From the IMG/VR virus record IMGVR_UViG_3300025889_000467, positions 1 through 34,183 of that record: a stretch of 34,183 nt of DNA; one strand, 5' to 3'. This document shows positions 7,690 to 32,783 of the stretch, one piece after another (the stretch's first letter is position 1; every line of letters begins with the position of its first letter). A program made the translations under genes and the position numbers. Source of the DNA: a virus. A model generated the notes under the pieces. That model had not been told where the DNA came from, searched no databases, and saw only the letters and a program-made list of their open reading frames with translations.

Positions 7690-7690
7690 T

Positions 7691-8437: not shown

Positions 8438-9138
8438 CTGTTATACCTTTTTATATACTTATTCCACCCGGAATATATAGATTCTCTACAAGAAAGTCTA
8501 TTCTCTGCGTGATGCAAAAATAAACCTTCGCCTAAATAAATACCACAATGATTGGGGATATTTGAATAAACATTAAATGTAATTACATCATGGACTTCTG
8601 GCTCTTCTACTTCTATAAACCCAAATGATTCATATAAATCATCAAAATAATTCAATCCTTTTTCCCACCAATCATCTTCAAATTCTATACTTGGAAGTAT
8701 AATGCCTAACTTTTCTCTATAATAGTCTCGAACTAAAGAATAACAGTCATTTTTTCCAAACTCATATGTTCTTCCTAGTAGAGGGGCTTCTTTATACTTA
8801 GGTACATGGGTAAATTTTTTTAACTCTGGTATTGTAAAAACTATATAAGGAATATTTAAAAAATTACTTGTTGCAATATCTTTTTCACTCGGACCTTCGG
8901 TAGAATCCGGATGACTATGAATTATAGCATATATGTCTCCAGATAAACTTGCTTTAATATATTCACCTGGATCTATTTTAAAAGAGTTTTCTTTATCCTC
9001 AGCTACATTAGTACAAGGAACCCATTTTAGTTTTCCTCTTTGGTTTAATAATATTCCACAACCCTCTTCTGGATAACAATCTATAAAATATTCTACTATT
9101 TCTTTATCTTCTTTGCTGTACACCAGGAAACCCACCAA
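8419..9138 (-). CDS. K: Tail assembly protein K: JAB/MPN metalloprotease plus NlpC/P60 peptidase
   Basis: A 239-aa two-domain protein. Residues 1-110 are a JAB/MPN domain with a complete JAMM zinc motif: E25, H74-x-H76-P77 and S84-x-x-D87. Residues about 118-239 are an NlpC/P60 domain with the expected nucleophile C132 (in NDCYSLVRDYY) and a histidine at H197 (in NHCGIYLG), with a third polar position probably at H209/H210. In lambda, K is required for tail-tip assembly; the NlpC/P60 domain may also cut peptidoglycan cross-links. All visible catalytic residues are kept, so both domains could be active. The start at 9138 lies 35 bases inside the end of L; no later Met would preserve the JAB domain. 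Confidence 0.93.
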   Translation of the reverse strand: MVGFLVYSKEDKEIVEYFIDCYPEEGCGILLNQRGKLKWVPCTNVAEDKENSFKIDPGEYIKASLSGDIYAIIHSHPDSTEGPSEKDIATSNFLNIPYIVFTIPELKKFTHVPKYKEAPLLGRTYEFGKNDCYSLVRDYYREKLGIILPSIEFEDDWWEKGLNYFDDLYESFGFIEVEEPEVHDVITFNVYSNIPNHCGIYLGEGLFLHHAENRLSCRESIYSGWNKYIKRYNRCKQFV

Positions 9139-10294
9139 ATCTTAAGTATTCAGTCTTTCTCAGACTAGTGCTGGGGACGTCTGTAGAATTTAACTGAATT
9201 GCATGATATCTTAATGAACAAGAAGTTATTTTTTTGCCGCAACGATCCCCAATTGTCCAATACCTTCCTTCCTGTAAAGAATTTACTACATTAGTATCTA
9301 CTGAATATAGTTTTATTCTCCATAAAGTTCCGGAATCTAGTACATATTCATTAAATCTTTTGTTTTTATAGCCATAATAAGTTGTTCCTACAGAATAAGT
9401 TTTATAGGCTCTAACTCTTCTCCAATTAGTTTTATCAGTATCTGATGGAGTAGGAGGAAAAGCAGTTAAAGCCTGCCAATAGCTATAGTCAGATACAGGA
9501 GTTATCGTAAGACCATCTGTACTAAATCTATCTAGGTTTTCTGCTGTTCTTACTAAATCTCCCACAGCCTCGGAACCAGTATAGTTGGAAAAAGCCGTTA
9601 TATTTAAAACATATTCATCTAACTCATTTACATATAGTGCAATCCCATTAACATCACTATATTCTAAAAATTTGCTCTCCCAATCGCAGCCTCCAGTCCT
9701 AGTATTTCTTGGTCTTGATCTTGCTGCTTCTTTATATTTAAATGGGCATGCTCCCCCAATTACAACTCTTTTTGGAAGTTTTATCCCCTCTAAATCAAAA
9801 GGGGCCGCTAACTCAAAAGTTACTTTAATTATATTTTTTTCTTTAATTCTATCTATATAGTAAACAGTTCTTGGGTACTCTATAGGAGCTAGCCCTGGGC
9901 CTACATCGGAAGAACCTCCCACCAAATACTTTTCAAGAGTAGTTCTTTTTGTTAGTTTTGAACCTATCAATTCTTCGGGTCTTAGTCCTCCAACAGCATC
10001 AGATAGCACAGTACCCATATTTGCAATACTTAAAATAGGTCTAGAAATAGCTCCATCTGATGCAATGTCAAATCCTTCTGCCTCTATAGGTATAGCTACG
10101 TATTCTATCTCTGCCCCTAAACCATATTGAGCCCTCCACTCTCTAAAACGAATATTTTCTAAAGTTACACCGTCATATTCTGCCTTTCCAGCGTAAAAAT
10201 AAGCGAAAGCTCCCTCAGAGTATTCTAACTCATATAAAGTTACAAGGGCAGATCCCGGGTCTTGTAGTTGAGTTGTTTTTATAATATCTGTCAT
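9104..10294 (-). CDS. L: Minor tail protein L-like, predicted iron-sulfur tail-tip protein
   Basis: This 396-aa protein is longer than lambda L (232 aa). The N-terminal 170 residues resemble the phage minor tail protein L family, including the RTVYYIDRI and FELAAPFDLEG segments typical of it. There are exactly four cysteines, C183 (GGACPF), C203 (GGCDW), C352 (DRCGKK) and C359 (SCSLR), followed by the L-type ending FGGFPGV. In lambda gpL the C-terminal domain binds a 4Fe-4S cluster through four cysteines, so I infer the same here. Between the second and third cysteines there is an insertion of about 150 residues, which explains the extra length. It overlaps M by 4 bases (ATGA). Confidence 0.92.
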   Translation of the reverse strand: MTDIIKTTQLQDPGSALVTLYELEYSEGAFAYFYAGKAEYDGVTLENIRFREWRAQYGLGAEIEYVAIPIEAEGFDIASDGAISRPILSIANMGTVLSDAVGGLRPEELIGSKLTKRTTLEKYLVGGSSDVGPGLAPIEYPRTVYYIDRIKEKNIIKVTFELAAPFDLEGIKLPKRVVIGGACPFKYKEAARSRPRNTRTGGCDWESKFLEYSDVNGIALYVNELDEYVLNITAFSNYTGSEAVGDLVRTAENLDRFSTDGLTITPVSDYSYWQALTAFPPTPSDTDKTNWRRVRAYKTYSVGTTYYGYKNKRFNEYVLDSGTLWRIKLYSVDTNVVNSLQEGRYWTIGDRCGKKITSCSLRYHAIQLNSTDVPSTSLRKTEYLRFGGFPGVQQRR

Positions 10295-10686
10295 GTCACT
10301 GCACCGTTAAAAGTTGGAACATTAATTTTTCTTAAATTTACCGTACAGGAATAAGCACTATTTTCTGTAAAATAAGATTGAGTAAAATCTTCACAAACTA
10401 CTTGTATTGTTTCTTCTCCTGCTCCTGCGGAGGGTAAGGTTAAAGAAAATGCTATAGTGCCCTCCCTCTCTTGTAAAAAAGAGGTGAGAATGTCTATCTC
10501 TTGCCTACTTCTGTTATTAAAATTAAGAGTTAATTTTTCTGTAATCGGATTTAATCCTGCTTTTGCTCTTAGTTCAAAACCCTTAACCTTGTATTGTCTA
10601 GCATTAATCTCTATTTTTCTAGATACATTTTTATCTGGGTTTATAAAAGTAGGCGGACTAGTCTCTAAATCTATTCCTAAAGCCAT
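10291..10686 (-). CDS. M: Minor tail protein M-like
   Basis: A 131-aa protein in the M position before L. It matches the lambda M type: a beta-rich protein with NNRSRQEIDILTSFLQEREG in the middle, where the segment I-x-x-x-x-x-FLxER marks the helix conserved in all three M-like domains of this window. The C-terminal half ends with a beta hairpin around CEDFTQSYFTENSAYSCTV. This is the only stand-alone copy; the two others are fused to adhesion-like domains at 16280-18001 and 22412-24163. The role known for lambda gpM is building the tail tip after L. AAGGA lies 6 bases before the ATG. Confidence 0.85.
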   Translation of the reverse strand: MALGIDLETSPPTFINPDKNVSRKIEINARQYKVKGFELRAKAGLNPITEKLTLNFNNRSRQEIDILTSFLQEREGTIAFSLTLPSAGAGEETIQVVCEDFTQSYFTENSAYSCTVNLRKINVPTFNGAVT

Positions 10687-10695
10687 GATAATTCC

Positions 10696-13600
10696 TTATG
10701 GTAATACTAAATAGTTAATACCCTCTGTTCCCGTAGTTACAGTACTTCCACTGTCGGATGCAGAAAATCTTAAGTAGCCCTCTTCTGGGAAAAGAGAACA
10801 CTCTCCAGCATTTAAAGTACCTTTGAAACAGTCATCTACCCAAGTAACAAGAGTACCGTTTATTCTTACATTCAAAGCATCTTTATTTCTTCCAGAAATA
10901 ATAAGTAAATTGCTATCAAAAGAACCATCTGAACTACCAGAAGTTCCTATCCTAACCCAATAATCGTCTTCTTTTGTAGCCCACTTTTTGCAATAAACCC
11001 CACCATCCATACTATCAGTATAAATAGACCAACCTACAACAGAGTTATAAACCGCCGGTCTTATAGTACCGGTACTAGTTGCTGTAGTAGTAAATATTAA
11101 TTGATTATTAAGATAATATTTTATATTCCCAGAACCGGTACCTTCCCTATCAATTCTAAAAAACCAACCTCCGGATACTGAGGCTGTAGCTGCGTTACTT
11201 ACGGTGTCCCCCCCTGTAATAATTTGTCTCTCAATATCAGTACTATTACTTCCTTGAAAGCCTTCTCCAAGTCTAAGTTTGTTAGTTACTCGATTATATG
11301 TAACATCTGCTGCTACTGTATGTTGCACAAGACTATTTTCAAGAATTTCTATAGTTAGAGTCGGGCTGTTCAGCCCCCCATCACTAGCAGTTCTTCTAAG
11401 TCTAAATCCGTATGTAACATCCCCTAAACTGTCTGGAAAAGAGTTTCCAGCAAAAACAGTCTCTGTCAATCCAAAAATTGTTTGAGTTTCATGTGCTGAA
11501 GTATTTTGCAAATCTCCTAATTTTGTAGTACTATTGGTTTGTTGGATAAACCACTCGCTAGAACAATCTCCCGTAGTTGTGTATTCGTCTTTTAATCTGA
11601 ACCCTGAAGCAAAATCTAGAGTCCAGCCGAAGTTGCTGCCAGCAGAAGTTGTAAAACGAAAACTTGTACCTGTATCGGGCATATGCTCTCTAAGCTGTAA
11701 TTGTAAATAAGCAAAATAGTTACTGCCACCGGCTATTGCAGTTCCAGAGGTAGTTGTGGATATACCTCCTCCTATCCAATTATCTGATACTAACTCAGCT
11801 ATATTATCGTATAAGTAACTAGATACCACAGTGGCCCGATAATCATTAGGGTCTCCACATAACCTAGCTTGTGTGCTATTCCCCGCAGTTCCATCATTAT
11901 CTGTTGCCTGTTTAAATATATAACGTAATGGTTTGGCGGGACTATTTAGTGAAATTGTAGCTCCTGTTAATCCTGTAGTATTTTTTAAAGGGTATGGCAT
12001 AGACATTGAGTCTATATCGAAAGTCCATTCTTCATTATTGTCATTCCATATTCCTGCCATTACTCCAGTTGTGTGATACTCATTTGCTGTAAAAATCTGA
12101 GACTGTATTGCATCATCGAAAGAAATAGTAGTTCCTTGAAATAAGTTATCTTGACTGGCATGAACAGTTTTAGTTTGTATTGAATCTCCAGGTCCTGCCT
12201 TAACCCAAGAAGAGCCGTTCCAGCCATATTCATCCCACAACCATCTTCTATAGTTAGTAGGAACCCCATAAGGATCTGCGGCATTTGAAATGTGTCGGGT
12301 AGGCCATCTATCGCTTCTAGGATATATCTGCAATCCTCTCCAGTAAAAAGAGTCATAACATCTTGCAACATCATTGAAATCAAGAATTTTTTCATCTGTA
12401 TAAGTAACATTATCGAAAGGAAAAAAATACATAGTACAATCGTCATCCCAATACCCATAAGCGGTGTGGGGCCAATCTCCCCTAATTAATCCTTCTACTC
12501 CGTCGGCTCTTGTAAATGGTATAGGTTTCAATAATCTTGAATATCCATAGTGATACATACCATTTAAACCTCCGTAACTAATTATTAACCCGTGAAAATT
12601 TTGAGTTTCAGAAGGTCCCGATGCTGCATAACCTTCTGTACCTAACTTAGAAGTATTTCCTGGATTAGTCATATAAGTTCCTGTTAAACTTCCATAGGTC
12701 CATGTAGCTGGTCGTGTTGCTGCAATAGTACTAGAATTCGAAGCCATTCTGGTGCTGGAATCTGGTTGTCCAAACGCTTGCCACCATATAGTTCCTGAGG
12801 AGTTTACTCCAAATAAATTTCTATATCGTAATATAACGCTAGGATAAATTTCTCTAAAAGTACTTTGTGCTACATCTTGAAAACTACTTGACCAGCTATA
12901 ACCAATTAAATCATAACTATTATTATAGCCAAATGTCAGAGTTCTTATTCTTCCTATAGATGTTGAATCTGAAACAGGATTCCACCAATACCCAAAAGTT
13001 TGAGTCCAACGAAAGCCTGCACTAGAAGCCCAAGCATTATTAGAAACAATAATCCAAAGCCTGTCTTGTGTGGGGTCCGCTATTAGAGCCAGTATGTTGC
13101 CCCACTTACTATTTTGTAATTCGCTAATAGTGAAAGTCACTCCCCCGGTAGAGGTATTGTCATATCCTGCCCAAGTAGTTCCCTGATCTGTGGACTTAAC
13201 AAGGGCGCCTTCAATAATCGCCCAAACAGTTCTATGGGTTCCTCCTATAGAGGTTCCTAGCTCTAAAGTATATGCCTTATTTGTAGGATTAACCGCTAAA
13301 TCTGCTAATCCAGTTATTCCTGGAGCTATAAGATAAGCTTCTCCTATTTGTCCGGAAGCATAAGAAGCTCCTACAAGAAGTTTTGTGCTTGTTAGAGAAA
13401 TACTAGACCCGTAAAGACTTGTTATAGGGGAAGTATTCCCAATACCCGTAACAGTTTCTTCCAAAGTGTTTAAGGCAATATTATAAATATAAATATTCCC
13501 AGAACCCAATTCAGAAATAGCATATCTTTGTTTTTTAGTGTCTATAGATACTGACCACCCAAAGTTTGTGCTAGAAGGGCTTCCTGAAGTGCGGGTGTCT

Positions 13601-16275
13601 GACAAGGTTCCTGCTGTAGTGCTGTACACATATACTGCTCCCTCAGAAGAATTAATGCCTGGAGCTCCTACAAGAATAATATCTTCATTTGCTGCTAGTG
13701 ACTTTCCAAATTCATCTCCATTAGTAGCGCCAGGACTAGTTATTGTAGTTTGTAGGCCAGCATCTGTATAAGTAGTATTTGCAGAAGAGTATATGTATAC
13801 CACACCTTCATTGTTTCCATTTTTCATGGAAGGGCATCCTACTACAAGTCTTGCATTATTAGTTATAGCTAATACTTCTCCAAAGAGATCGTTGTCTCCT
13901 GTAGTATTATCTGGGTTTACTAATGTTTTTTGTAATACTGGGAAACTAAAACCATTAAGATCATAAATATAAACTACCCCAGAGTCTGTATTTAGTGTAC
14001 TTTCTTCATTTGTTGCAGAAACAGCAACATATTCAGCTACACCGTTTGAATAGACTGCTACTGCGCTTCCAAACCTATCTCCAGCAGTAGTTCCAACATT
14101 ATTTTCGTTGTTAATAGTCATAACTGGACTAGTGGGGCTACTCGCATCTAAATCATATATGAATACCTTTCCTGATTCAGCATTTGTATCGGCCTTTTTT
14201 GGGGCTCCAACAGCAAGAATATTATTTTCTGGAGAAATAGATATAGAATAGCCGAATTCTGTTGCAGTACCTGGGCTAGTAGGGTCTTGCAAAGTATGTA
14301 TTAGACTTCCTGAAGTATTATAAATATATACATACCCTGGCGCACTTAGAACGCTTCCAGGTGACGAAACTATAAAATAATTCTCATTTGAGCAAGTTTT
14401 ACTCGCATATAAATCTCCGGCAGTTGGGTGAGGATTAGATAAAGTATTATCAAGAGTAGAAGATTCAAAAGTTGTAGAAAACTGAGCATGTTTTGTAACT
14501 ATAATCCCGCTTCCTATATTTAACATATTTTGTATTCTATAAATACCGTTAAATGAGTCCGCTATCCACACATCCCCAGAAAGATCGTCTATCTGTAGCA
14601 TATTTATAGTAGTACAGTCAAAGGCAGGATATGGAGTTACATAACAATGTTTTAAAATTTCGGGAGTATTTGGATCATATATGTATAAGTAAGGTAATCT
14701 GTTACTAGGATCTCCAAGATCATTACCCACACCATATATAAGCATTGCATCTCTGCCATCTGATAAAGTAACCTCTAGCCTTTCTTCATATAAGCTAGGG
14801 TCTGTCGAACCATTAGTATCAATACTTAAACGATCTAAAGGGCCTCGCCACTGGTCGGTACCTTCTAATACAGAACCTTTGAAAATATTTGACCAATTAT
14901 TTGTTGAGTTATAATAGCCTGGGTGATCCAAATTTTCATTTCTTGGTGAATAAGTATTGGCAGAAGTTCCTGTAATGTACCTTCTTAAAGCATAATAATC
15001 TGCTTTTGTACCTCCAGTAACTGTTCCTGTAGAGGTATAATTTATTCTATATAATTGTGGTAAATAAGATCTATCCATAGAGGAAGAATCTAAATTAATT
15101 GTACCAGTAGTGTTAGCAATATTAGTCGCATCAAAAAAAGGCTTAGTTTTTGTGGCGCTATGGGCATATACATTTTGAGTTTTGTTGTCTCCAGGTTTAA
15201 GTATATTAAACCAAGTATAATAGTAGCTCGTATTATCATTTCTATTAGTATACGGAAATAAACAACCCCTAATTCTTCCTAAATCAGTATCCAATAAATT
15301 TTTTGTATAAGTAAGATATTTAACCTTATAGTACTTATCATAGCGGTAATAATCGGCTTGAGTAGAATAAGAACCATAGTTTGCTGTACTTCTATTCCAG
15401 ATATTATAATTATCTCCAGTTAAAGGAGTAGTACTAGCAGGACCGTTTAATTCTGCAGGCGTTGGCCAGCCCCCATGAAAACCCCCATCACGAAGACCCG
15501 CAAAAGGGAAATTATCTACCATCCCTGAAGTTCGATTTCCAGAGCCCGCGTGGGAGACAGCAGCGAACCAACTATATTTATCCATTGAAACGTTTGACGG
15601 TGCTGAAAAAGCTAATTTATAAGAAACTATTAGAGTTTCTGTAGGGCTTTGTACTATTGCAGGAGAAACAGTTGTAAAAGTATACAAAGGAATATGGCTT
15701 GAAGTACTAGTTATTCTATATGCTGCATGATAATTCTCAATCCAAGTACTATTTGGACTATAATAATTAGCTTCAAAACTAGAATTTCTTTGTACAGTTA
15801 ATGCCAGAGTATTTACAGTAAATGTAGAAACTGGCGGAGCGAATTGCTGAGTTAATCTAATATAATACTCTTGATTAGTTTCATCCCATTGTAGTCTTTC
15901 AATTTCTGAAACTCCTGTAATTTTTGCTCCAAATCGTGCAGAATAATCGTCTAGATTTAGTTCGCTAACTTCGTCATAATTTTCAGTTTTTGGCTCGTCA
16001 GTTATAATTATAAAGCCTGTACCTAATAAACTTGCGAGCTCAGAACCACGAATACTATCACTTATAACTTGTCCATTAGTATCCCAGGTGGCCTCACCAG
16101 AACTACTACCGTTATACCACGTATGCCCATACCACGGTTCACTTTGCTCTCTTGCGGACCAAGTACCCAGGTGCTCCAAACCTAATTTAGTGATAATATT
16201 TGGAATCCAGTCGCTTTCTTCTACAGTTTTTCCTTGACTATCTAATTTTTTATATTTATAATATCCTTTTTGCAT
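10696..16275 (-). CDS. Giant tail adhesin/spike B (paralogue of 18001-22407) with inserted beta-propeller
   Basis: A 1859-aa beta-rich protein paralogous to the 1468-aa protein at 18001-22407. Shared landmarks run in the same order: a similar start (short polar strand then EESDWIPNIIT), RRYITG, the segment NKAYTL...HRTVWAIIEGALVKS with the Asp-box STDQGTTW (about residue 1030), ISFDD, a concanavalin/LamG-like stretch FFRIDREGTGSGNIKYYLNN, and a C-terminal domain starting YWVRIGTSG and ending YLRFSASDSGS. Only this copy has seven FG-GAP-type repeats at residues about 612-983. No signal peptide or membrane segment is visible. It follows its M-like partner by 4 bases. I infer a virion adhesin or spike; no enzyme active site is recognised. 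Confidence 0.72.
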   Translation of the reverse strand: MQKGYYKYKKLDSQGKTVEESDWIPNIITKLGLEHLGTWSAREQSEPWYGHTWYNGSSSGEATWDTNGQVISDSIRGSELASLLGTGFIIITDEPKTENYDEVSELNLDDYSARFGAKITGVSEIERLQWDETNQEYYIRLTQQFAPPVSTFTVNTLALTVQRNSSFEANYYSPNSTWIENYHAAYRITSTSSHIPLYTFTTVSPAIVQSPTETLIVSYKLAFSAPSNVSMDKYSWFAAVSHAGSGNRTSGMVDNFPFAGLRDGGFHGGWPTPAELNGPASTTPLTGDNYNIWNRSTANYGSYSTQADYYRYDKYYKVKYLTYTKNLLDTDLGRIRGCLFPYTNRNDNTSYYYTWFNILKPGDNKTQNVYAHSATKTKPFFDATNIANTTGTINLDSSSMDRSYLPQLYRINYTSTGTVTGGTKADYYALRRYITGTSANTYSPRNENLDHPGYYNSTNNWSNIFKGSVLEGTDQWRGPLDRLSIDTNGSTDPSLYEERLEVTLSDGRDAMLIYGVGNDLGDPSNRLPYLYIYDPNTPEILKHCYVTPYPAFDCTTINMLQIDDLSGDVWIADSFNGIYRIQNMLNIGSGIIVTKHAQFSTTFESSTLDNTLSNPHPTAGDLYASKTCSNENYFIVSSPGSVLSAPGYVYIYNTSGSLIHTLQDPTSPGTATEFGYSISISPENNILAVGAPKKADTNAESGKVFIYDLDASSPTSPVMTINNENNVGTTAGDRFGSAVAVYSNGVAEYVAVSATNEESTLNTDSGVVYIYDLNGFSFPVLQKTLVNPDNTTGDNDLFGEVLAITNNARLVVGCPSMKNGNNEGVVYIYSSANTTYTDAGLQTTITSPGATNGDEFGKSLAANEDIILVGAPGINSSEGAVYVYSTTAGTLSDTRTSGSPSSTNFGWSVSIDTKKQRYAISELGSGNIYIYNIALNTLEETVTGIGNTSPITSLYGSSISLTSTKLLVGASYASGQIGEAYLIAPGITGLADLAVNPTNKAYTLELGTSIGGTHRTVWAIIEGALVKSTDQGTTWAGYDNTSTGGVTFTISELQNSKWGNILALIADPTQDRLWIIVSNNAWASSAGFRWTQTFGYWWNPVSDSTSIGRIRTLTFGYNNSYDLIGYSWSSSFQDVAQSTFREIYPSVILRYRNLFGVNSSGTIWWQAFGQPDSSTRMASNSSTIAATRPATWTYGSLTGTYMTNPGNTSKLGTEGYAASGPSETQNFHGLIISYGGLNGMYHYGYSRLLKPIPFTRADGVEGLIRGDWPHTAYGYWDDDCTMYFFPFDNVTYTDEKILDFNDVARCYDSFYWRGLQIYPRSDRWPTRHISNAADPYGVPTNYRRWLWDEYGWNGSSWVKAGPGDSIQTKTVHASQDNLFQGTTISFDDAIQSQIFTANEYHTTGVMAGIWNDNNEEWTFDIDSMSMPYPLKNTTGLTGATISLNSPAKPLRYIFKQATDNDGTAGNSTQARLCGDPNDYRATVVSSYLYDNIAELVSDNWIGGGISTTTSGTAIAGGSNYFAYLQLQLREHMPDTGTSFRFTTSAGSNFGWTLDFASGFRLKDEYTTTGDCSSEWFIQQTNSTTKLGDLQNTSAHETQTIFGLTETVFAGNSFPDSLGDVTYGFRLRRTASDGGLNSPTLTIEILENSLVQHTVAADVTYNRVTNKLRLGEGFQGSNSTDIERQIITGGDTVSNAATASVSGGWFFRIDREGTGSGNIKYYLNNQLIFTTTATSTGTIRPAVYNSVVGWSIYTDSMDGGVYCKKWATKEDDYWVRIGTSGSSDGSFDSNLLIISGRNKDALNVRINGTLVTWVDDCFKGTLNAGECSLFPEEGYLRFSASDSGSTVTTGTEGINYLVLP
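13325..14440 (-). repeat. Seven FG-GAP-type repeats: inserted seven-bladed beta-propeller domain
   Basis: Protein-level repeats of about 45-60 aa within the 1859-aa protein. Each pairs an opening FG-x-S-x-type strand with a V-x-x-G-A-P-type strand and a G-x-V-Y-I-Y strand. In order they are: GDLYASKT to GYVYIYN, FGYSISIS to GKVFIYD, FGSAVAVY to GVVYIYD, FGEVLAIT to GVVYIYS, FGKSLAAN to GAVYVYS, FGWSVSID to GNIYIYN, and YGSSISLT to GEAYLIA. Seven units fit a closed seven-bladed propeller of the integrin-alpha kind. The paralogue at 18001-22407 lacks the whole block. Confidence 0.85.
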
Positions 16276-16279
16276 TTTA

Positions 16280-16640
16280 TTAATACCTTATTAAATTAAG
16301 AGATCTTGAGGAAGAATTTACTCCTGAACTAATATTCAAAGAGTCTTCCTGATTTATATAGGCTGGAGAATATCTAATAACAAGAAGATCTGCTTGAGAA
16401 GATACTCCACTTTCCAAATTATGTTCGTCTTCTGGGGCTCCGAATTCAACCCCGTATCTTACAACACTAAGCTTAGAATTTGTTGTAACTCCGGATTCAA
16501 CACTTATAATAGCTTCCTCTACTAGTGGAATAGGAGTATATCTAGCTATACCTATTGCTCCGTTTGCGTATACACCGCTCTCTATAGTTTCTTCTGTATT
16601 GAAAGGAACATATATTCCAGTCTCACTTGTAGATACTGTA
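16280..16640 (-). repeat. Four imperfect C-terminal peptide repeats (SGV...RY type)
   Basis: The last 110 residues of the 573-aa protein contain four units of about 30 aa with the cores ESGVYANGAIGIARY, ESGVTTNSKLSVVRY, ESGVSSQADLLVIRY and SSGVNSSSRSLNLIRY. The final unit ends the protein. The repeats are visible at protein level but have diverged in DNA sequence. Confidence 0.8.
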
Positions 16641-18001
16641 ATAGGAGCTGTATCAACTACTGTTCCTCCGTAACCTCCGGTTTTAATCCTTAAAGTAAAA
16701 TTCTTAGGCTCTGCTAAGAGTTGAACTTCAGTGGTTAAATCAAACTGCCCACTTGCTAATGTAGTATTTCCTGTTGTTGAAAATGTTCCTTGAGTTGCTG
16801 AAAAATCTACACTAGTTGCAGCATCCTCTATAGTCCAATAGTAGATTCCTGGGTTTACAAATCCAGTGTCAAAATAAACTGTGTACGTTTTATTTTGAGC
16901 AAAGTAATAAGCGTTTGCCGAGGTTCCTCCAGGAGAATCTACTAATAAATAATAGGTATTTGGAGTAATAACTACAGTTATATTATCTTGTACAGGTCCG
17001 GTAGTGCTATCCTTATGAATAAAAAGAGTATAAGTAATATCAGAAGTGTTGCCTTCTATTTCTTTAACATTTAATGTTATAGTTCCTTCTCTGGAAAATA
17101 CGTTTCCTATCATAGAAAAGGAACCAAAAGTTTCTTCAAAATGAGTTGCTGGAGACGGTCCAGATATAGTCCAGTAAAGTACATCATAATCGGAACTTTC
17201 ACTCTCTACGTAAATGAAAGTAGTAGAAGGTTCCTGTACATATGTTAAACTTAAGTCTATTCCATTACCGTCTGTAATTCTAATAAATTCAGGACCTCTA
17301 GAGGTGTCTTGTACAGTTACAGTCGTAGAAGCTAATTCTAAGTTTCCAAAACCTCCGGAGGTTATAGATAGAGTAAATACTTCTGGCCCTTCTGTAGTAG
17401 AGTCGGCTGCAGGAGTAATATCGAATTGCCCTGTTCCGCTTTCTGTAGTTCCTGAAAGAGCAAAAATTCCGGCTAAAATGGGAACATCAAAAACTGTCGT
17501 ATCCGTTAACTGCCAGTATAAATTTTGTGGCTCAACTCCTATAGAAGTTACATTTACTGTTAAAGTGCTTCCTTCATTAACACTATAAGGAGCACTTACT
17601 AGAGTTAATCCTGCTGCATCGTCTGCCTCATTATATTCTCTATATAAAGTTACTGTTATAGAAGCAATTTCTGTATTAAAATAAGTTCTAGAATAATCTT
17701 TTACATATACTGTTATATCTTTTTCACCGTCTAATGTCACAGTATTATCCGGTAAGGTTAGTTGAAAGTTTTTTATAGAACTTCTTTCATCTAAAAACTG
17801 AGCTATTGAATCTATTTCTTCTATAGGACGATTTGTAAAAGAAAGAACATATGTTTCTTCTAGGCTATTAGTTCCGAGCGAAACTCTGGACTCATATCCA
17901 TCTCCGAAAGACATTAAAGAGTATATAGGTTTTGCGCTTTTGCGCGCTACCCTATCCGGCACTCTTTTTTTACTTGTTAAATCGGAGAATCCTATTGTCA
18001 T
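16280..18001 (-). CDS. M-like tail protein fused to three Calx-beta-like domains (copy B)
   Basis: A 573-aa chimera. Residues 1-125 are an M-like tail domain: GDGYESRVSLG, then TNRPIEEIDSIAQFLDERSS and KDYSRTYFNTEIASITVTLY, which align with both the stand-alone M and the 583-aa copy. Three Calx-beta-like domains of about 105 aa follow (about 130-235, 236-345, 346-455). Each carries a 'YWxI/L...F' strand, a GxFS/GxFALSGT turn and a PExFTL-type strand. Residues about 460-573 hold four short repeats (see separate entry). The start overlaps the stop of the preceding giant gene by one base (TAATG). I infer that the M-like end docks on the tail tip and the rest forms a stalk or adhesion arm for the 1859-aa protein. 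Confidence 0.75.
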   Translation of the reverse strand: MTIGFSDLTSKKRVPDRVARKSAKPIYSLMSFGDGYESRVSLGTNSLEETYVLSFTNRPIEEIDSIAQFLDERSSIKNFQLTLPDNTVTLDGEKDITVYVKDYSRTYFNTEIASITVTLYREYNEADDAAGLTLVSAPYSVNEGSTLTVNVTSIGVEPQNLYWQLTDTTVFDVPILAGIFALSGTTESGTGQFDITPAADSTTEGPEVFTLSITSGGFGNLELASTTVTVQDTSRGPEFIRITDGNGIDLSLTYVQEPSTTFIYVESESSDYDVLYWTISGPSPATHFEETFGSFSMIGNVFSREGTITLNVKEIEGNTSDITYTLFIHKDSTTGPVQDNITVVITPNTYYLLVDSPGGTSANAYYFAQNKTYTVYFDTGFVNPGIYYWTIEDAATSVDFSATQGTFSTTGNTTLASGQFDLTTEVQLLAEPKNFTLRIKTGGYGGTVVDTAPITVSTSETGIYVPFNTEETIESGVYANGAIGIARYTPIPLVEEAIISVESGVTTNSKLSVVRYGVEFGAPEDEHNLESGVSSQADLLVIRYSPAYINQEDSLNISSGVNSSSRSLNLIRY

Positions 18002-21000
18002 TACACGGACTCATAATAAGCGCAACCCATATTTATAGATATCGCTTTTCCTGCATCTGCCGAAGAAAATCTTATTAATCCTTCTAATGGATATATAGTT
18101 ACCTCTCCTGCTACCAAATTATTAGAAGAATTGTATCCAATTACGTCTGCTTCGACGCCATCAATAGTAATACTAAATGCTTGACGATAAGAACAAAGCA
18201 AATGGCTGAAATCAGTTCTATATGCTCCGGTTGCAGGACTAGCTTCCCCGACTTTCACCCAATAATCGTTTTGAGCGGGGGAATACATATTTAATAAGAG
18301 TCTTGTTTCAGAATGGTTAATATAACCATAAGTCCCTCCACCATAATATTCTTGTGTATTAGCTAAAGCAGGAATTAAAGATTCTGTACTGGACAATAAA
18401 GAAGTATATAAAAGAGTATCATTTAAATAATAGTTTATAGTTGTTCCTACCCTTTCTATTCTAAACATAGACCCAGTACCAATGTATCTAGGGGAAAAAG
18501 TATATCGGGCTGTACCACTCCAAGTATTACTGCTGTCCCATATATTTCCTTGAGTACCTGATGAAGTTTCTAGATCATAGTAACTACCATCAAAACCCTC
18601 ATTTCCACTCCCAATCAAATTACGATAATTATAATCTGTATTAGAATATTTTACCACTCCTGATTCAATTATTTGCAATTCTATTGGATAGCTATAACTC
18701 ATTTGACTACTGTATCTTTCTGAATAGTTTGTGGCATTGCCCGTATAACTACTCCAATTTCTTATACTACTACTAGCTCTTTGAACAGACGACTCCTCTG
18801 TGCCAAAACTACCTGTTGTATTATTTTGTTGTATTAACCTAAAGCCATATTTTATGTCCGTCCAACTTTGAATATTTGTATTAGCACTTTCTGGACTCGC
18901 TGAATCCGTATAATCCGCGGCATCTACTAGTCCCCAGGAAGAATATTTATTAGTGCCCTGTGTAAGAGGACTATTCCAAGTATCTGTATAGTTAAATACT
19001 AATTTATAGTAGTCTAGACTCGATATCTGCGACTCTTGAGGAGTACTATATAAATTAAAATCTCCGGAAAAACTATTAGAGGTTTTAAATCTAACAGCAT
19101 TTGTAAAAGTTCCCGGAGTACCATTATAATTAGTACTACCCCCATTATTTGCAGAAAACATATACTTAGGAAGACCGTCTTGATTATTGTCAGTATAGTA
19201 GTACTTAGTTGTTATAGGATAGTTTCCATTTTCTGCACTATATGTAAGTACTGTTTGACTTGTATTAATTGAATAAAAATTTCCTGCAGTAATGGTCGGG
19301 GTAGTAGTACTTTTTTGACTCGGATCTCCATCTATAATTTTATAAAAAGGAACTTGCTCAGTTGGGGTGTTTGCTGATAATGCTAAAGAAATATTTTCAT
19401 ATGTTGACGAGAGTCTAGAAGCTATAACAGAATATCCTGTCCATTCAGTAGCTTTATCATTTTGTATTCCATCACAGACTGTGGTTGCTATAAGCTCTCC
19501 TGATGTAAAGGATTGAGTAGCCCCGCTATCATCAAAAGAAATAGTGGCTCCGCCGATCAGATTATCTGTAGTAGCGTGAGTAGTTTTAACGGTTAGGGGA
19601 TCATTATCATCTACCCTACGTACCCAGGCAGACCCAGTCCACTTATAACGCTCCCAGATTTCTCCTATTAATTTTGCAGATACATCCCATCCATAAAAAG
19701 AGTCGCCAACGTGTTGAATCCCAGCCCCAACGTCACATAATCCTCTCCCTAGATAATACCCAGTTATACTATCTAATTTAGTGGTTGAATGGTTACTGAA
19801 CTCTAGTTTATAAAATCCAGGAATATCATAAGATCCTATAGGTGTTCCAAAATAAGCTCCATTTACAATAAGACAATCATTTCCATCATCATCTGTAGCT
19901 TCATAAAATACGTTATTATAATAGTTTCCCTGATTCGAGTTGGTGTTGGAATGTCTTCCTCCATCATAACGAGTCGATAGCTGCCAGTCATTAAGGTACG
20001 GGCTAGAAGTAGAAGAGTAGTTAAAATTATTTAAAGTAGTCGCTCCACCATTCCAGCTAGTCAAAAATTCTGGAGGGAAAATGTCATAATTATTTGGAGA
20101 TCCATCTATCTGTTGCTCAAAATAAATCTCTAGGGGGGTCCCTCCAACTAAATTATGTGTAGGAGTCGGGGTCTCTAAAGCGAGCACTCCCCAATAATTT
20201 CTTAACCACCAATGAGATTGATTCTTAGTACATCCAAATTGGTCTTTTAACTGTCTTCTGCTGTAAGAAGCGTAGCCATTATAATTAGTAACATTATCAG
20301 ACCAAAGAGATTCTACACTAGCAACAGTGTATCCTATATTAGCACTAATTATATTAGAGAAGTTACTAGTGAGATAGCTATTAGTTGGCAAAAAAGCTAA
20401 AGGAGAGTTTGTTGATAATAAGTTAGTAGAGTCATTTGTTGCGCTCCACCAAAAAGCGTATCCTTTATGAACTCTCAAACCACTATAAGTAGCACCTGCT
20501 GCACCAGAATCAACATATATTATTAATAATCTATTATCTGTTTGTTTGTCTGCGTTCATTGCGAGAGTATGTTCCCAAGAACTTTCAATATTGCTCTGAG
20601 TAAACGTTACTCCACCAGTGGATGTAGAATCATAAGCTGTCCAAGTACTTCCATTATTAGTTGATTTTACTAAAGCACCCTCTATTATTGCCCAGACGGT
20701 CCTGTGTGTGGTTTGAGAGGTTCCTAAAGCTAAAGTATATGCTTTATTTTGGGTTGTGGAAGCAACATCAGGTAAAGAGGATAGATTATAGCTATTAATA
20801 GATATAGAAGATTGGGTAGGATTAGTAACACTATATAACCCCGTTGTTGGACAAGCAACCCAAAAAGTGTCCGATAATTCATCATATTCAATTGCAGAAA
20901 TATATTCAGCACCAAAAACAGGATAATTTCTACCACTAATTCTTATAGGAATTTGATCTACCATATTATAAAATATTATCTCATCGGCTACAACATGATA

Positions 21001-22407
21001 AATCCAACTCGTGTCCCCCGAATATAACTTGAATGGAGACTGCAAGAGTTCAGCTGTACCACTCTGAGGTACAGGCCCGCTTTCTCTTATTCCATAATCA
21101 AAAAGTTCTCTGTAAACTGTTACTCCAGTAAGCATTGTTGCATCGTTGTATCCCTGATTATTGGATAACCCATAGGCTTGAATCGTTCTGCCAGAAAATG
21201 TATTCTCATTCCATCCTGTTATATATCTTTTCATAAAGGAGTATTCTGCAATACCTACTCCCCCCGTAGTTCCTGAAAAATCTATTTTCCAATACTCTGG
21301 TATTCTTGCTTCATAGTTTACTGTGTCTAGGAATAGAGTTGCATTTGTAGTAGGAATCTCTGAGATATTAAAATAAGGCGTAGTGGGTAAATTAATTTTA
21401 GTTTGATATGCTTGAGTTTTATTTGTAGTAGATCCTATAAGTGAACCCCACCAACCTGTATGTGTTCTTTGTTGACCATAAACAGCTATCATCCCTCGTA
21501 TCGCTCCTAGATCAGAGGCAGTTATGGTTTCAGTATTTTTCATTAGATATAAACCATCCCATCCACAATATACAGTTGGGACAGTCATAATGGCGTCTGA
21601 CGTACTATACATAAGAGGGAGCCGAGAAGATATATTTGGTTGATTTGCTACAAAAGTTCCAGACCAACTACTAGCCCTATTTTTAGTAGCATTTAAAGCG
21701 AAAGTACTATTACTAAGGCTAAGAGTGCTAGTGCTATTATTTGGAATATAAGTATTGAATTGAAATTCGCTATTACCTAAATAAGTATAAGTACTAGTAG
21801 TATTAGTGGCTGATGCTCCTCCAAATCTATAAGTAGCTTCAGAATATAAAGTCCACCAGTCTTGGGTAGTACTGGCTTCTATAGTAACCGTTATAGTGTA
21901 TTGTATTACAGCTATATCATTTGCTGTTTGTACTACAGGACTAGGAAAACTTGCGCAACTTAAATGCACAATACTAGAGCCCAACCTGCACAAAGATAAA
22001 GTGTGTAAATTTCTGCTTGAAATAGATAAAGGAGGTTGTAATTCTTTTGTAATTGTAATTGTAAAAGATTCATTATCTCTAGTTATAAGAACGGGCTCAA
22101 CCGAACTAGGATTTTCCGTTTGATAAAAATTTCCAGGTAATGTAAAAAAATTTTTATTTATAGTAGGTATATAAGTGTCTCCAACCATTAAAAGAAAACC
22201 ACCCATATTCACTGCAGCCTGTGTGTTTAAAGTACCGCCATTGAAACTACCGTTTATACTACTGGTATTGGTCAAAACTGGCATTCTTGGTAATGAAGTA
22301 GACCACCATACAGCATTTGTAAAGGAGTTTTCAATTACATCAGAAGTATAATGTATTTCACCTGTATCTTTATTTTTAAGTTGTACTAATACTTCGCCTT
22401 TTACCAT
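18001..22407 (-). CDS. Giant tail adhesin/spike A (paralogue of 10696-16275)
   Basis: A 1468-aa beta-rich protein. It shares with the 1859-aa protein KRYITGWNENTFS, the segment NKAYTLALG then HRTVWAIIEGALVKS with a degenerate Asp-box STNNGSTW (about residue 582), ISFDD, KYGFRL, a lectin/LamG-like stretch FRIERVGTTINYYLNDTLLY, and a C-terminal domain (DYWVKVGEASP to GLIRFSSADAG). It lacks the beta-propeller: the shared text jumps from GLYSVTN (about 525) to NKAYTL (about 553). It is very rich in Asn, Ser, Thr and Tyr, as many receptor-binding proteins are. The ORF is uninterrupted. Its role as an adhesin or spike is inferred; glycan hydrolysis is possible, but no catalytic residues are recognised. 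Confidence 0.72.
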   Translation of the reverse strand: MVKGEVLVQLKNKDTGEIHYTSDVIENSFTNAVWWSTSLPRMPVLTNTSSINGSFNGGTLNTQAAVNMGGFLLMVGDTYIPTINKNFFTLPGNFYQTENPSSVEPVLITRDNESFTITITKELQPPLSISSRNLHTLSLCRLGSSIVHLSCASFPSPVVQTANDIAVIQYTITVTIEASTTQDWWTLYSEATYRFGGASATNTTSTYTYLGNSEFQFNTYIPNNSTSTLSLSNSTFALNATKNRASSWSGTFVANQPNISSRLPLMYSTSDAIMTVPTVYCGWDGLYLMKNTETITASDLGAIRGMIAVYGQQRTHTGWWGSLIGSTTNKTQAYQTKINLPTTPYFNISEIPTTNATLFLDTVNYEARIPEYWKIDFSGTTGGVGIAEYSFMKRYITGWNENTFSGRTIQAYGLSNNQGYNDATMLTGVTVYRELFDYGIRESGPVPQSGTAELLQSPFKLYSGDTSWIYHVVADEIIFYNMVDQIPIRISGRNYPVFGAEYISAIEYDELSDTFWVACPTTGLYSVTNPTQSSISINSYNLSSLPDVASTTQNKAYTLALGTSQTTHRTVWAIIEGALVKSTNNGSTWTAYDSTSTGGVTFTQSNIESSWEHTLAMNADKQTDNRLLIIYVDSGAAGATYSGLRVHKGYAFWWSATNDSTNLLSTNSPLAFLPTNSYLTSNFSNIISANIGYTVASVESLWSDNVTNYNGYASYSRRQLKDQFGCTKNQSHWWLRNYWGVLALETPTPTHNLVGGTPLEIYFEQQIDGSPNNYDIFPPEFLTSWNGGATTLNNFNYSSTSSPYLNDWQLSTRYDGGRHSNTNSNQGNYYNNVFYEATDDDGNDCLIVNGAYFGTPIGSYDIPGFYKLEFSNHSTTKLDSITGYYLGRGLCDVGAGIQHVGDSFYGWDVSAKLIGEIWERYKWTGSAWVRRVDDNDPLTVKTTHATTDNLIGGATISFDDSGATQSFTSGELIATTVCDGIQNDKATEWTGYSVIASRLSSTYENISLALSANTPTEQVPFYKIIDGDPSQKSTTTPTITAGNFYSINTSQTVLTYSAENGNYPITTKYYYTDNNQDGLPKYMFSANNGGSTNYNGTPGTFTNAVRFKTSNSFSGDFNLYSTPQESQISSLDYYKLVFNYTDTWNSPLTQGTNKYSSWGLVDAADYTDSASPESANTNIQSWTDIKYGFRLIQQNNTTGSFGTEESSVQRASSSIRNWSSYTGNATNYSERYSSQMSYSYPIELQIIESGVVKYSNTDYNYRNLIGSGNEGFDGSYYDLETSSGTQGNIWDSSNTWSGTARYTFSPRYIGTGSMFRIERVGTTINYYLNDTLLYTSLLSSTESLIPALANTQEYYGGGTYGYINHSETRLLLNMYSPAQNDYWVKVGEASPATGAYRTDFSHLLCSYRQAFSITIDGVEADVIGYNSSNNLVAGEVTIYPLEGLIRFSSADAGKAISINMGCAYYESV

Positions 22408-22411
22408 TTTA

Positions 22412-24163
22412 TTAAATCCTATTTAAAGTTGCTATTCCAGAAAAACTTAAATTATTAATACCTCCCCTACCAGAAGAGGTATCTGTGGTTACTATTCCTT
22501 CTATTTTGTCAAATCGTTTAGTTACTTCCGCAGTTGAGAAGTTTAAATTATCTAAGGCTACTTCTGACGTTGCGCTATCTATAGCTGTAAATAGTATTTG
22601 ACCTTTTCTCTCTATATTAGTAGAGTCGAGTTTAGGATTAAAACTAACATTAAATAAACCTATAGAACTGGAAGCACTATCTGTAGTTATTATTCCTGGT
22701 ATTCTATTAAATCTTTTAGTTACTTCCGTAGTTGAGAAGTTTAAATTATATAAAGCGTGTGAAGAGCTTACTTCTTCTGAAGCTGTCAGGTATACATCTG
22801 CATATATTAAAGTACATACATCTATAATCGGCCCTGAAGCACTTCCTGTTCTTAAATATATAGTGTAAACTTCTGGAAAAGTGCCGCTTTGTTTAATTAT
22901 ATCAAAAGTTGCGGTGTTATTTTCAGTAGTTCCTGTAGGAAGAAAACTTCCAGAAACAAAATCAAAATCTGCTCCGCCGCCGATAGCGTTCTCGATTGTC
23001 CAGTATATAGTTTGAACATCGAAAAAGTTTGCTGTATAATATAAAGTTGTAGTAAAAGGGCTGCCTACCTCTAATACTACAAAGTCAATATCCTGGCCTT
23101 GAGAATTTGTAATTCTTGCCCCGATAAAAGTTTCGGGTATTACTGATAAAAGAAAAGAATCTACTATTTCTCCACTTATACTATTTTTTCTTAAATTTAC
23201 TGTTCTGAGTTCTTCTTTCGTTACCTCCGAAATAGAAGTAATAATCTGGGAAGTATCACTCTCAGCAAAAGTTCCTGTAAGGGTTAATTCACCATAAACG
23301 GGAGTAATTAAACCAACAGAAGAAACTATGGGGTCTATAGAAAAATATAGCTTTTCATTAGGATTAAAATTAGTTACTCCGACATACAAAGTAGTTTGTT
23401 TTGTAGCTTCTAATATTCCGGAACTTATATTAGCTCCACCACTATCTACAAAATTAAAAGTCTCTGCACCTAGAGAAGTATCCTCAATACTTATTCGTAT
23501 TGACGCTAAAATAAACCCCCCAACAGAACCCTGCCTTACGGATATAGTATATATTTCTGTTCCTTCTGTTTTAACATCTGCTAAAACTTCTACATCAAAA
23601 GAACCTGTACAAGATAATAAAGTTCCAGAAGTACTAAAAGAGCCATTTACAGCGGTAAAATCTGCTGTTGTGGCACCATCTATACTCCAATATAATAATT
23701 CCGGTCCTCTATTGTTTGTAGAAACATCTACAGTATTAACTGTTCCTTCGCCAGTAGATATATTACCAGAAGTTATAGCTACATAAGGAAGGTCTATTTG
23801 TTCTTCAAATACTTGTATAAATTTTGCGGAAATAGACCCTATAACATCTGTTACGTAAGTTCTGCTATACCCCTCACAATATACTACTACTGTTTTTTCT
23901 CCGGAATCTGTAGGTACTGTGAAATAAAAATTTTTGTGTTTTTCTCTTTCTTCTAAAAAAAGCGCTATATTATTTATTTCTTCAATGGATCTATTATTAA
24001 ATGTTACGTCATAGACCTCAATTGTAGCATTAGTTCCTATAGAGATTCTTGATTCGTACCCATCACCTAAAGTATTTAAACTATATACAGGTTTTACAGA
24101 TCTTTTTACTTCCCTGTCAGGAACAAATAAGTTACTGTTAGCGTCTGAAAATCCTATAGTCAT
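22412..24163 (-). CDS. M-like tail protein fused to three Calx-beta-like domains (copy A)
   Basis: A 583-aa chimera immediately after the tape measure gene, overlapping its stop by one base (TAATG). Residues 1-125 align with the 573-aa copy and with M: MTIGFSD start, GDGYESRISIG, NNRSIEEINNIALFLEERE, and EGYSRTYVTDVIGSISAKFI. Three Calx-beta-like domains occupy about 126-230, 231-340 and 341-455, with LYWSIDGATTADFTAVNGSF and IYWTIENAIGGGADFDFVSG as the clearest examples. The last 125 residues contain a tandem-like repeat (see below). The lambda tail-length protein H is normally followed by M, so this gene sits in the M position while carrying a long C-terminal extension. I infer a tip-anchored adaptor for the 1468-aa protein. 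Confidence 0.75.
   Translation of the reverse strand: MTIGFSDANSNLFVPDREVKRSVKPVYSLNTLGDGYESRISIGTNATIEVYDVTFNNRSIEEINNIALFLEEREKHKNFYFTVPTDSGEKTVVVYCEGYSRTYVTDVIGSISAKFIQVFEEQIDLPYVAITSGNISTGEGTVNTVDVSTNNRGPELLYWSIDGATTADFTAVNGSFSTSGTLLSCTGSFDVEVLADVKTEGTEIYTISVRQGSVGGFILASIRISIEDTSLGAETFNFVDSGGANISSGILEATKQTTLYVGVTNFNPNEKLYFSIDPIVSSVGLITPVYGELTLTGTFAESDTSQIITSISEVTKEELRTVNLRKNSISGEIVDSFLLSVIPETFIGARITNSQGQDIDFVVLEVGSPFTTTLYYTANFFDVQTIYWTIENAIGGGADFDFVSGSFLPTGTTENNTATFDIIKQSGTFPEVYTIYLRTGSASGPIIDVCTLIYADVYLTASEEVSSSHALYNLNFSTTEVTKRFNRIPGIITTDSASSSIGLFNVSFNPKLDSTNIERKGQILFTAIDSATSEVALDNLNFSTAEVTKRFDKIEGIVTTDTSSGRGGINNLSFSGIATLNRI
22483..22558 (-). repeat. 76-base imperfect direct repeat, unit 2 (coding)
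   Basis: This stretch is nearly the same as 22681-22756. It encodes the later peptide NLNFSTAEVTKRFDKIEGIV of the 583-aa protein. Both units lie near the C-terminus and DNA identity is high, so this duplication is more recent than the cassette duplication. Confidence 0.85.
22681..22756 (-). repeat. 76-base imperfect direct repeat, unit 1 (coding)
   Basis: This is the partner of 22483-22558, 198 bases away. It encodes NLNFSTTEVTKRFNRIPGII. The repeat preserves the reading frame. Confidence 0.85.
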
Positions 24164-27100
24164 TATGAAGCTCCATAAGGACTAAGTATTCCTCCCGGTC
24201 TTTTCTGGTTTTGTAGTTCTTCTTGAACTACCGCTGCAATTATTCTTCCTAAATTAGCACCAGCTTGAGAATCTTGTTCTACAGTTGTGTTTGCTTTTCC
24301 TTCATTATTGACCGAAACTGAAACATTAACATTATTTGTTTGTGCTCCTCCACCTAAATTTCCTTCTATTGGAATTGACTTTCCATCCGGAAGAGGAACT
24401 ACAGCTTCATTCATTCTTCCTTCGCCAATTAATCCAAGTGTTGGTCGATTTACAATCCCACCATTTGCATATGCTCTAAATCCGCCAGGAGCTATACCAC
24501 CCATTGCGAAGCCAAAAAATCCCATTATACCTTTAAGAATAGTGCTAAATATACCTCCACCTCCTCCAACGCCTCCACCGCCAAATAGATTGGAGAAAAA
24601 ACCACCTATCTTATCGAATAGTCCCTTGAATATTCCACCTAGTTTGCTAAGAAAAGTTCCTTCTCCACTAAATAATTCTCCCATTTTATCTTTAAAACTT
24701 CCAAAAATATCTTTAATTTTAGATAAAAAGCCACCGCTCTGTTTCCCGTCTGAAGGAAGAATAAAACTATCTTTGCTTAAAACATCTTTAACATTCGGAC
24801 CACTACTCTTTTGGGCAGATGCATCTATAATTCCTCTTGATATTTGTTCTGACAAAGAACCTTGCATACCGAGAGGATCAGCACCCAAAGCTAAAGTATT
24901 ATTATCCATTCCTTCATAAGGCATTGGCTTTAATTCACCAAAGGCTTCTGTACCAATAAACTGTCCATAAGTCATGTTTCTAGGAGTACCTTCTGGGTTA
25001 AAGGTACCTCCAATAGGATTTTCACCCGTTTGTCCAGAAGGAGAAGCGACCGCTTTTACAACACTAGCTAATATTTGTGCCGTTTCTCCGCTGCTGCTGC
25101 TGCTGCTTTCTCCTGTGCATTTACAGGATTTACAAGCATCAGTAATAGCTTGATGTAACATTTTAGAAGCTTTTGAAAAAGTATCCATCAAAGAAGAATT
25201 TAAATCTTCAGAACTATCTTTAATAGCTTTTGCCTGTCGCTTGAGGGGTTCCTCCACAGCTTTTTTATATTTATCTGTTTGTTCGGGACGAGTCATCTCA
25301 TCGCCAATAGCTTTTCCTACTTCTTTATACGCAGCAGGGTCTGGCTTCAATCCAAGAGCGATTTCAAGTTTTTCTGGTAGAAGTGCTTTGAGAATTGATA
25401 ATGCTAAAAGTTGCGAAATAAAATCAGCTATAGCTTGAGCAACCCCTCTCGTAAAATCAATTAAAGACTCTTTAAAAGATTTGGTGCCCTGTATATAAGA
25501 TTGAATAGCACTAGACAAATTACTGAGGAGAGATTCCCCAATAACTTTATTTAGCTTACTAAATTGATCTATTTCTTCCTTTATAGCAGCTACTCGTTGC
25601 TTTTGAACTTCTAGTAATCTTAGCTGATCTTGCTGCTGCAAAGCTAAGCCTGCACGAATTATAGGATTTTTCTCAATTTGTAACGATAGTCCTGTTTGAG
25701 TAATATCATTGTCAAGTTTTCTTAATGCTATATCTTCTTCGATTAGACGTAATTGGTCGTCATAAATCTCTTTTGCTTTACCTACTAGCTTATTTGTCTT
25801 TAAACGAGCTTTTTGAAGAGCTGTTTCGGCTTCTTTAACATTTCGAACTTTGTCTTCTAAAATGTCAATATTTACTGCAAGGCGTTCTATCTCTACAGTA
25901 GTTAATCCTGTTCTTTGTTTTATCTCCTTCGCAGTATCTACTAAGTCTCCCTGAAAAAGGGAAAGCTTTTTATTTACGTTCTCTGTCTCTCTATCTAAAG
26001 CTTGAATAGCTAGTTTAACAGCGATAAAATTATCTGCTCCACCCTTAAAATTACCCAGAGTCTGTACAAGACTTTCGTTGGCATTTTTAAAAGCTTCTAC
26101 CCCTCCTACAGCGGAACCTGCAACAGCTTCTATACCTTCAAAAGCGTATTTTAATGCAAAAAACTCTTCTAAAGTTTGTGGTTCTATTCCTCGGTTAATA
26201 ACAACCCCTGCAAGAGCAGCCTGTTTTGCCATATCCGGATATAATTTCTTCAGATTTTCTAAAATTTCTTCTCTATTTGCACCTTCTTTATTAGCAGTTG
26301 CTTCAGCTTTTCGTATAATACTAGAAGTGTTTAAAGTTGTCATTGCGTTAGCACGTTGTAGAGCAGTTCCACTATCTAATACGCGCCCTAACTCCTCAAG
26401 AGCAGTAGTATAACTTTCTATTTCGCTCTGTAATCTCTGCGCCGCTAAAGTAGCTTCTTTATCTACTGCAACCATTTTTTCTTTTTCTAGAAGATTTTTT
26501 GAGATTCCAGTTTGTGCAAAAGATTCCCCAAGAGTAATATTTCCCTTAGCTAACTGTTCTATATTAAAATAGCTTTCTCCTAAAATATCAGCGAATCTTC
26601 CTGCTGCATCACCAACAATAGGTAAAACAGAAAGTACTGTTGAAATTCCTTGAAGAAATCCAACTATAAGATTATTTATTAGACCGACTAAAGTAGCTAT
26701 ATATGTATTTCCAGTATCGAAAAATTCAAAAATAGATTGTATCCAGCCTCTCAGTTTAGTAGTCATTTCCCCAAACAATTCTGTAGCTAAACTAAATATA
26801 CCTACAAAGCTAACTAGACGAATAACCCTTCCAACCTGCTTTCCAACAAAAGCAAAGGCACCACCAATACTTTTAGCTACACCAATAGCTATCGACTTTA
26901 CTTCCAGAAAACGTCTTTTCATAAGTAGAAAAGTTTTTTCCCATATAGTCTGAGTTTTGACAGCAGCTTGTTGATTTGCCAGAACAATTTGGGCAAGAGC
27001 TTGTCTCATTGCTACTACAGCTTCTAAACTAGCGCCCTTGTAAACCCCTTTTATTACTTGCCCATTCTTAATAATTTGGGCCTCTACTCGGGCTAAGTCT

Positions 27101-29083: not shown

Positions 29084-29105
29084 GTATTACACCTTCTTTA
29101 TTTTA

Positions 29106-29143
29106 GTAAAATAGGGGGAGCATAAACTCCCCCAATATTTTAC
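29106..29143 (-). terminator. Hairpin terminator or attenuator after the major tail protein
   Basis: The inner stem is GGGGGAG/CTCCCCC (29114-29120 and 29127-29133) with a 6-base loop. The outer arms GTAAAATA/TATTTTAC extend it across a 2-base bulge. In the minus-strand direction it is followed by TAAAATAAAG, a weak U-tract. It lies between the tail tube gene and G and could reduce transcription of the genes downstream. Confidence 0.65.
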
Positions 29144-29182
29144 AATTATACATAAGTGATGACTGAATGTCAAGATATTTTT

Positions 29183-30358: not shown

Positions 30359-30363
30359 GTTTA

Positions 30364-30390: not shown

Positions 30391-30408
30391 TCTCTAACCT
30401 ACAAAAGG

Positions 30409-32732: not shown

Positions 32733-32750
32733 TTAATCTCTCAAAAGGCT

Positions 32751-32770: not shown

Positions 32771-32783
32771 TCCTAAGTAGTTT

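Follow-up and report, generated by a model that had tools for sequence, protein, structure and literature searches.

Two tandem cassettes of a gpM-fusion adaptor and a giant adhesin-like protein in the tail-tip operon of a clade of uncultured phages

The window analyzed here, a whole IMG/VR virus record of 34,183 bases with its main genes all on the minus strand, carries two homologous cassettes between the tape measure protein (TMP) and the short gpM (M), each consisting of an adaptor that begins with a gpM-family domain and of a very large protein, hereafter the giant. Such a phage is probably equipped with two sets of host-gripping arms that can be swapped separately. The features on which the analysis rests are the following:

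24163-28257, minus strand: TMP, the upstream border (phrog_3779, E 5e-43)
22412-24163, minus strand: adaptor of cassette 1, 583 aa (PF05939, E 2e-13; phrog_14, E 2.5e-16)
18001-22407, minus strand: giant B, the giant of cassette 1, 1468 aa
16280-18001, minus strand: adaptor of cassette 2, 573 aa (PF05939, E 9e-11)
10696-16275, minus strand: giant A, the giant of cassette 2, 1859 aa (FG-GAP block, PF14312, E 1e-24)
10291-10686, minus strand: M, 131 aa, a third member of the gpM family (phrog_14, E 4e-9)
9104-10294, minus strand: gpL homologue, the downstream border (phrog_18, E 9e-27)
1963-7689, minus strand: gpJ homologue (central fibre), retained (phrog_31, E 4e-146)

Along the minus strand, the order was head-tail genes, TMP, adaptor-giant-adaptor-giant, M-L-K-I-J and a post-J protein. 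The two pairs, 22412-24163 with 18001-22407 (position 1) and 16280-18001 with 10696-16275 (position 2), are collinear, and the ORFs proved to be exactly as the initial annotation had described them, i.e., two pairs occupying about 13.5 kb of the minus strand between tape measure and M. The repeated junctions that it had pointed out were also identical at both cassettes, TAATG preceding each adaptor with a 1-base overlap and TTAATAAAATG preceding each giant with a 4-base gap. Both adaptors lie between the tape measure and gpL genes, which is the gpM-family neighbourhood. After the tail genes, at 71-712, lies a gene for a 213-aa protein whose match to GNAT acetyltransferases was weak and fell below the cut-off (E 0.01).

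Profile searches placed the N-terminal domain of both adaptors in the lambda gpM family (PF05939/phrog_14; E 9e-11 to 3e-16), with PF05939 scores of 42.6 and 51.0 bits against a curated cut-off of 39, in keeping with the earlier description of the first gene of each pair as an M-like fusion. The short M belongs to the same family and has the size and single domain of a lambda-type gpM (~110-130 aa), from which the adaptors, fusions of 573-584 aa, depart. The two adaptors are homologues (34% identity over 461 aa, E 4e-70) with a common plan, which in adaptor 1 consists of a gpM-type domain (~aa 15-120), three beta-sandwiches (aa 127-454) and a repeat tail (aa 457-583). In an AF2 model from 10 sequences, residues 38-117 formed a beta-strand-plus-helix domain and residues 127-239, 248-352 and 361-454 the three beta-sandwiches, while the tail from 457 onward had no predicted fold (pLDDT under 30). 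The best solved matches to the stalk model were the tandem calcium-binding (Calx-beta) domains of sodium-calcium exchangers (NCX1/CALX), with Z of ~10.1-10.5 and ~200 residues aligned to the domain pairs at an rmsd of 8-10 over two domains. Since the Calx-beta Pfam profile returned no row for the stalk at E 0.1 or 0.05, we term it Calx-beta-like only. The tail of the cassette-2 adaptor comprises four 28-aa repeats, each ending in an [I/V]xRY-type motif. In contigs L010 (7677-8003) and L011 (7252-7578), the tail of adaptor 1 contains a near-perfect internal duplication of 129 bases, the halves of which are 95-96% alike across contigs; this suggests that the tail repeats expand or convert. A 41-aa segment of J (aa 1657-1697), located in its C-terminal part, is similar to the first of the adaptor-1 stalk domains (44%, E 0.009), and J may thus carry domains like those of the adaptor stalk.

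The giants of the two cassettes are ~25% identical and share four collinear BLAST blocks (N-terminal part, propeller motif, middle and C-terminus), the best of which shows 51% identity over 139 aa (E 6e-28). BLAST therefore shows homology both between the giants and between the M-like domains, as a reading of the pairs as two copies of one cassette demands. The initial claim of colinear domains holds for these four blocks but not for the FG-GAP block, which is found in giant A and is absent from giant B. Giant B comprises an N-terminal domain, a beta-propeller (~aa 430-910), a beta-rich C-terminal part and a conserved stretch of the last ~85 aa. Its residues ~430-910 match WD40-type beta-propellers (Z 11.6-12.9, ~240 residues) in a low-confidence model; because the giant fragment model was poor (mean pLDDT 43), the propeller assignment alone is used here. 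No match was obtained at E 1 when the giant profile was compared with the sequences of solved structures, and the best row from a viral structure library (A0A292GCE6, E 8e-19) was set aside, as it showed 13% identity on a poor model. A 1420-aa protein of an unrelated phage contig (L015:8984-13246; also L016 and L017) has the propeller region alone in common with the giants, at 28%. The beta-propeller fold, an Asp-box-like motif in the sequence (STDNGSTW) and the large size would also suit enzymes that cut surface glycans (propeller hydrolases), anchored in the same manner but not pure adhesins. However, the giants matched no Pfam or PHROG enzyme family, no catalytic set was found in them and the profile revealed no solved relative, so we consider it unlikely that they are such enzymes.

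The complete order TMP-adaptor-giant-adaptor-giant-M-L-K-I-J was found in the window, in the L009 group (3300025769_000595, supported by 3300025771_000322 and 3300025889_002961), in L010 (3300031519_000138) and in the L008/L011 pair (3300021957_000113, 3300021960_000228). Another contig, L012, was ~99.5% like the window, and the partial contigs L002 and L023 were consistent with the layout over the parts present. Every contig spanning the region possessed two cassettes, none having one or three, and the contigs sharing the layout represent divergent IMG/VR lineages from several samples. Judged from these contigs, the two-cassette layout is fixed in a whole clade of uncultured phages. Sister contigs L055-L071 (gpL 42-49% identical) and L075 (53%) have TMP-M-L-K-I-J with a single M of 120-125 aa, a count restricted to contigs that hold the upstream side (L054, gpL 55%, begins too near M); the cassettes are thus most simply explained as an insertion gained within one clade. 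In L075 (701-1853), the gpL gene lies in two frames around a gap of ~100 bases, which would reflect disruption of the gene, an insertion or faulty assembly.

Phylogenetic analysis resolved the giants of position 1 and position 2 into separate clades (support 100/99 and 99/99), which points to one old duplication that occurred before these lineages split. The gpM domains of the adaptors grouped together (100/100) and were separate from the M clade (100/99). This adaptor clade fell among the single M proteins encoded by the sister phages (94/87), a placement from a short alignment that calls for care; it agrees with an origin of the adaptor in a duplicated M. The position-2 adaptor of the window had a long branch and was placed in no well-supported set.

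Contigs L009 and L023 had a DNA identity of 98.4% across giant 1 and the part of adaptor 2 up to residue ~464, after which identity dropped to 24% in the adaptor 2 tail and 41% in the giant 2 body; it returned to 97.8% at the last ~85 residues of giant 2 and continued through M, L, K and I into J. This swap between near-identical phages was observed in one contig pair; the L023 frames are intact across both swap junctions, and an assembly chimera is possible for this single contig. In the tree, giant A grouped with the giant of L014 (100/100), a contig with the tail sheath, portal and terminase genes of a T4-like myovirus. The tail of the window's cassette-2 adaptor also matched that of the L014 adaptor (z 12.4, 0/200 shuffles; next best 3.5) and was the sole adaptor tail that clearly did so. 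On this sequence evidence, giant A of the window is a replacement related to the giant of a T4-like myovirus. Among eleven adaptor-giant pairs, which are not independent of one another, tail similarity tracked giant similarity with the stalk allowed for (partial Spearman 0.55, 0/2000 permutations). Covariation and joint exchange of tail and giant are most simply explained by binding between the two. Given that tail and body changed whereas the terminal 85 residues of giant 2 did not, the surface of the giant that meets the tail probably lies in the body or the N-terminus. As far as the compared contigs indicate, adaptor tail and giant are exchanged between phages as one piece, even with other tail types. 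In L014 (4866-14560), a 1386-aa adaptor with an FG-GAP part, several stalk domains and a repeat tail lies beside the giant-A homologue, the pair being situated between the tail sheath stabilizer and terminase genes; this is the same kind of adhesin with a contractile tail.

Between L010 and L011, dS was 1.2-1.7 in TMP, L and K, 0.06 in giant 1 and 0.21 in giant 2, and the low values of the giants relative to the backbone suggest that the giants were probably exchanged recently. The dN/dS ratio was 1.05 for giant 1 and 0.58 for giant 2, as against 0.06-0.20 for TMP, the adaptors, M, L and K; gene I was excluded because its dS was saturated and gave no ratio. Changes in giant 1 were clustered in short patches (82 close pairs vs. 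30 expected) and were most concentrated at sites also variable in other lineages; omega reached 2.0 in the most variable columns, which make up one of eight bins (p 0.03, uncorrected). Such clustering is typical of the surface loops of a recognition protein, although small recombination tracts could produce it as well. A diversity-generating retroelement was rejected as the source of variation in the giants, the base-change spectrum being even and not adenine-biased.

Taken as a whole, the sequence comparisons establish homology, domain identity, duplication, positional clades, joint exchange and clustered variation. We propose that each cassette is an anchor-plus-adhesin unit. The gpM domain of the adaptor would form an extra hexameric tube-type ring at the distal end, between the tube and the normal M ring, an order suggested by that of the genes; the three Calx-beta-like domains would project outward as a stalk, and the C-terminal repeat tail would serve as the socket into which the giant encoded by the same cassette docks. 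This giant would be a beta-propeller adhesin with variable patches that binds a receptor and so grips the host surface, and both giants would be present on one virion; adhesin function and docking to the adaptor tail are the well-supported parts of this inference. The ancestral cassette would have arisen by duplication and fusion of gpM and would have been duplicated before the lineages split, after which the two positions diverged. We regard this explanation in its entirety as reasonably likely, the adhesin on a gpM anchor being more secure than the stacking of rings. A bolder version is plausible but somewhat more apt to be wrong than right: three successive gpM-type rings, two of them position-specific sockets for independently exchanged giants, with specificity lying in the short tail that travels with the adhesin, even between a siphovirus and a T4-like myovirus. 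The two extra sets of tip-anchored spikes envisaged in the initial annotation agree with the homologous cassettes, the gpM-domain anchor in each and the adhesin-like giants, but that picture has to be amended in that the duplication is old and the second giant has been replaced.

The three gpM-family proteins might instead share one mixed ring, with the giants alternating on a single platform and no extra rings. Such mixing is conceivable, as the gpM domains of the adaptors are ~50-62% alike between positions and ~27-39% like M, but M constitutes a separate, strongly conserved clade and the T5 precedent is an added ring rather than mixing (PMC10038345). We therefore hold a mixed ring to be improbable and retain separate rings in the proposed architecture.

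Duplicated, exchangeable specificity genes can serve as alternatives elsewhere, and a single cassette might accordingly be used per virion or per host while the other is stored. Against this, the frames of both cassettes are intact, closely packed and all in the same direction, purifying selection acts on both adaptors (omega 0.17-0.20 between L010 and L011) and two cassettes occur in every contig that spans the region, which makes storage of one cassette very unlikely. The repeated gene order and junctions might suggest that the tandem duplication is recent or that it is an artefact of assembly; both readings are refuted almost beyond doubt by the divergence of adaptors (34% identical) and giants (~25%) and by the occurrence of the layout, with its positional clades, in independent contigs from several samples.

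The capsid and tape measure proteins were nearest to those of T5-like phages, and L and J were nearest to lambda-type tips, so a T5-like capsid and TMP (24163-34163) and a lambda-like tip (1963-10686) make the genome a mosaic of two classic siphophage types. Assignment of a host from the nearest cultured relatives was abandoned and no host is named, as the T5-like head and tape measure and the lambda-like tip point differently; likewise, bacterial genomes searched for the cassette gave no match, so no host could be drawn from prophages. By tblastn, cultured phages contained no match to giant B or the cassette-2 adaptor, and giant A was represented by its FG-GAP part alone, in cyanophages and one Sinorhizobium phage. 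A single-protein pattern search for relatives yielded one locus for giant B and none for adaptor 1, and alignments did better. The cassette was not found in ~50,000 phage records, and a search of largely open-access literature returned no description of the layout. The initial statement that no two-cassette tail had been described therefore stands for the cultured phages and literature searched; the layout is nevertheless not unique to this phage, being common to other IMG/VR lineages. No earlier description of it was found, although tails with extra rings, with dual receptor-binding proteins or with exchanged fibres are already known.

The way in which siphophage tails acquire extra receptor-binding arms is known from few cases (T5 collar, lactococcal baseplates), and in this uncultured clade the arms appear to have been gained through a distal ring protein that was duplicated and fused, twice. 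The paired genomes mark the border between anchor and specificity module and would supply a testable plug-in rule (tail plus giant) for swapping host-recognition parts between unrelated tails.

Among known systems, Pseudomonas phage ZQG1 (OQ504960) resembles the window in having a large extra gene beside M in a lambda-type tip operon, an SGNH hydrolase gene between M and L, but this is one gene, located after M, with neither a gpM-domain adaptor nor a duplication. The tail-fibre module common to distant families of Alteromonas phages is likewise an exchange of host-recognition parts; the module is a single fibre with a chaperone and not a gpM-adaptor-giant unit (PMC10579305). In lactococcal 936 phage Phi4.2, the siphophage tip bears two related receptor-binding proteins, as proposed here, but the gene for the second is a neighbour of the classical gene within one baseplate region, whereas each giant has its own gpM-type adaptor gene (PMC6315561). 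Lambda gpM, the hexameric distal ring that joins the tube to the gpL/gpJ hub, shares its domain family and its place after TMP and before L with the adaptors, from which it differs in being a single 109-aa protein with neither a stalk nor an adjoining adhesin gene (PMC10721106). The earlier contrast with a lambda tail of one M and a single J fibre is correct as to gpM but omits the side tail fibres (stf, tfa), which were lost in the laboratory strain (PMC10721106). A close parallel is T5, in which an extra ring of p140, a duplicated tube protein, sits within a collar of Ig-type p132 that holds the side fibres (PMC10038345); both systems would have a tube-type ring added near the tip by gene duplication, an Ig-type anchor and long side fibres (PMC10038345; DT57C, PMC10713586). 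In T5, the tube protein pb6 was duplicated once and the anchor is a separate protein, p132, so that the gpM-family adaptors with their fused stalks do not constitute a T5-type collar; in the cassettes, a gpM/Dit-type protein was duplicated twice, with ring domain and stalk in one chain. The authors of the T5 study expected lambdoid phages to anchor their fibres in another way (PMC10038345).
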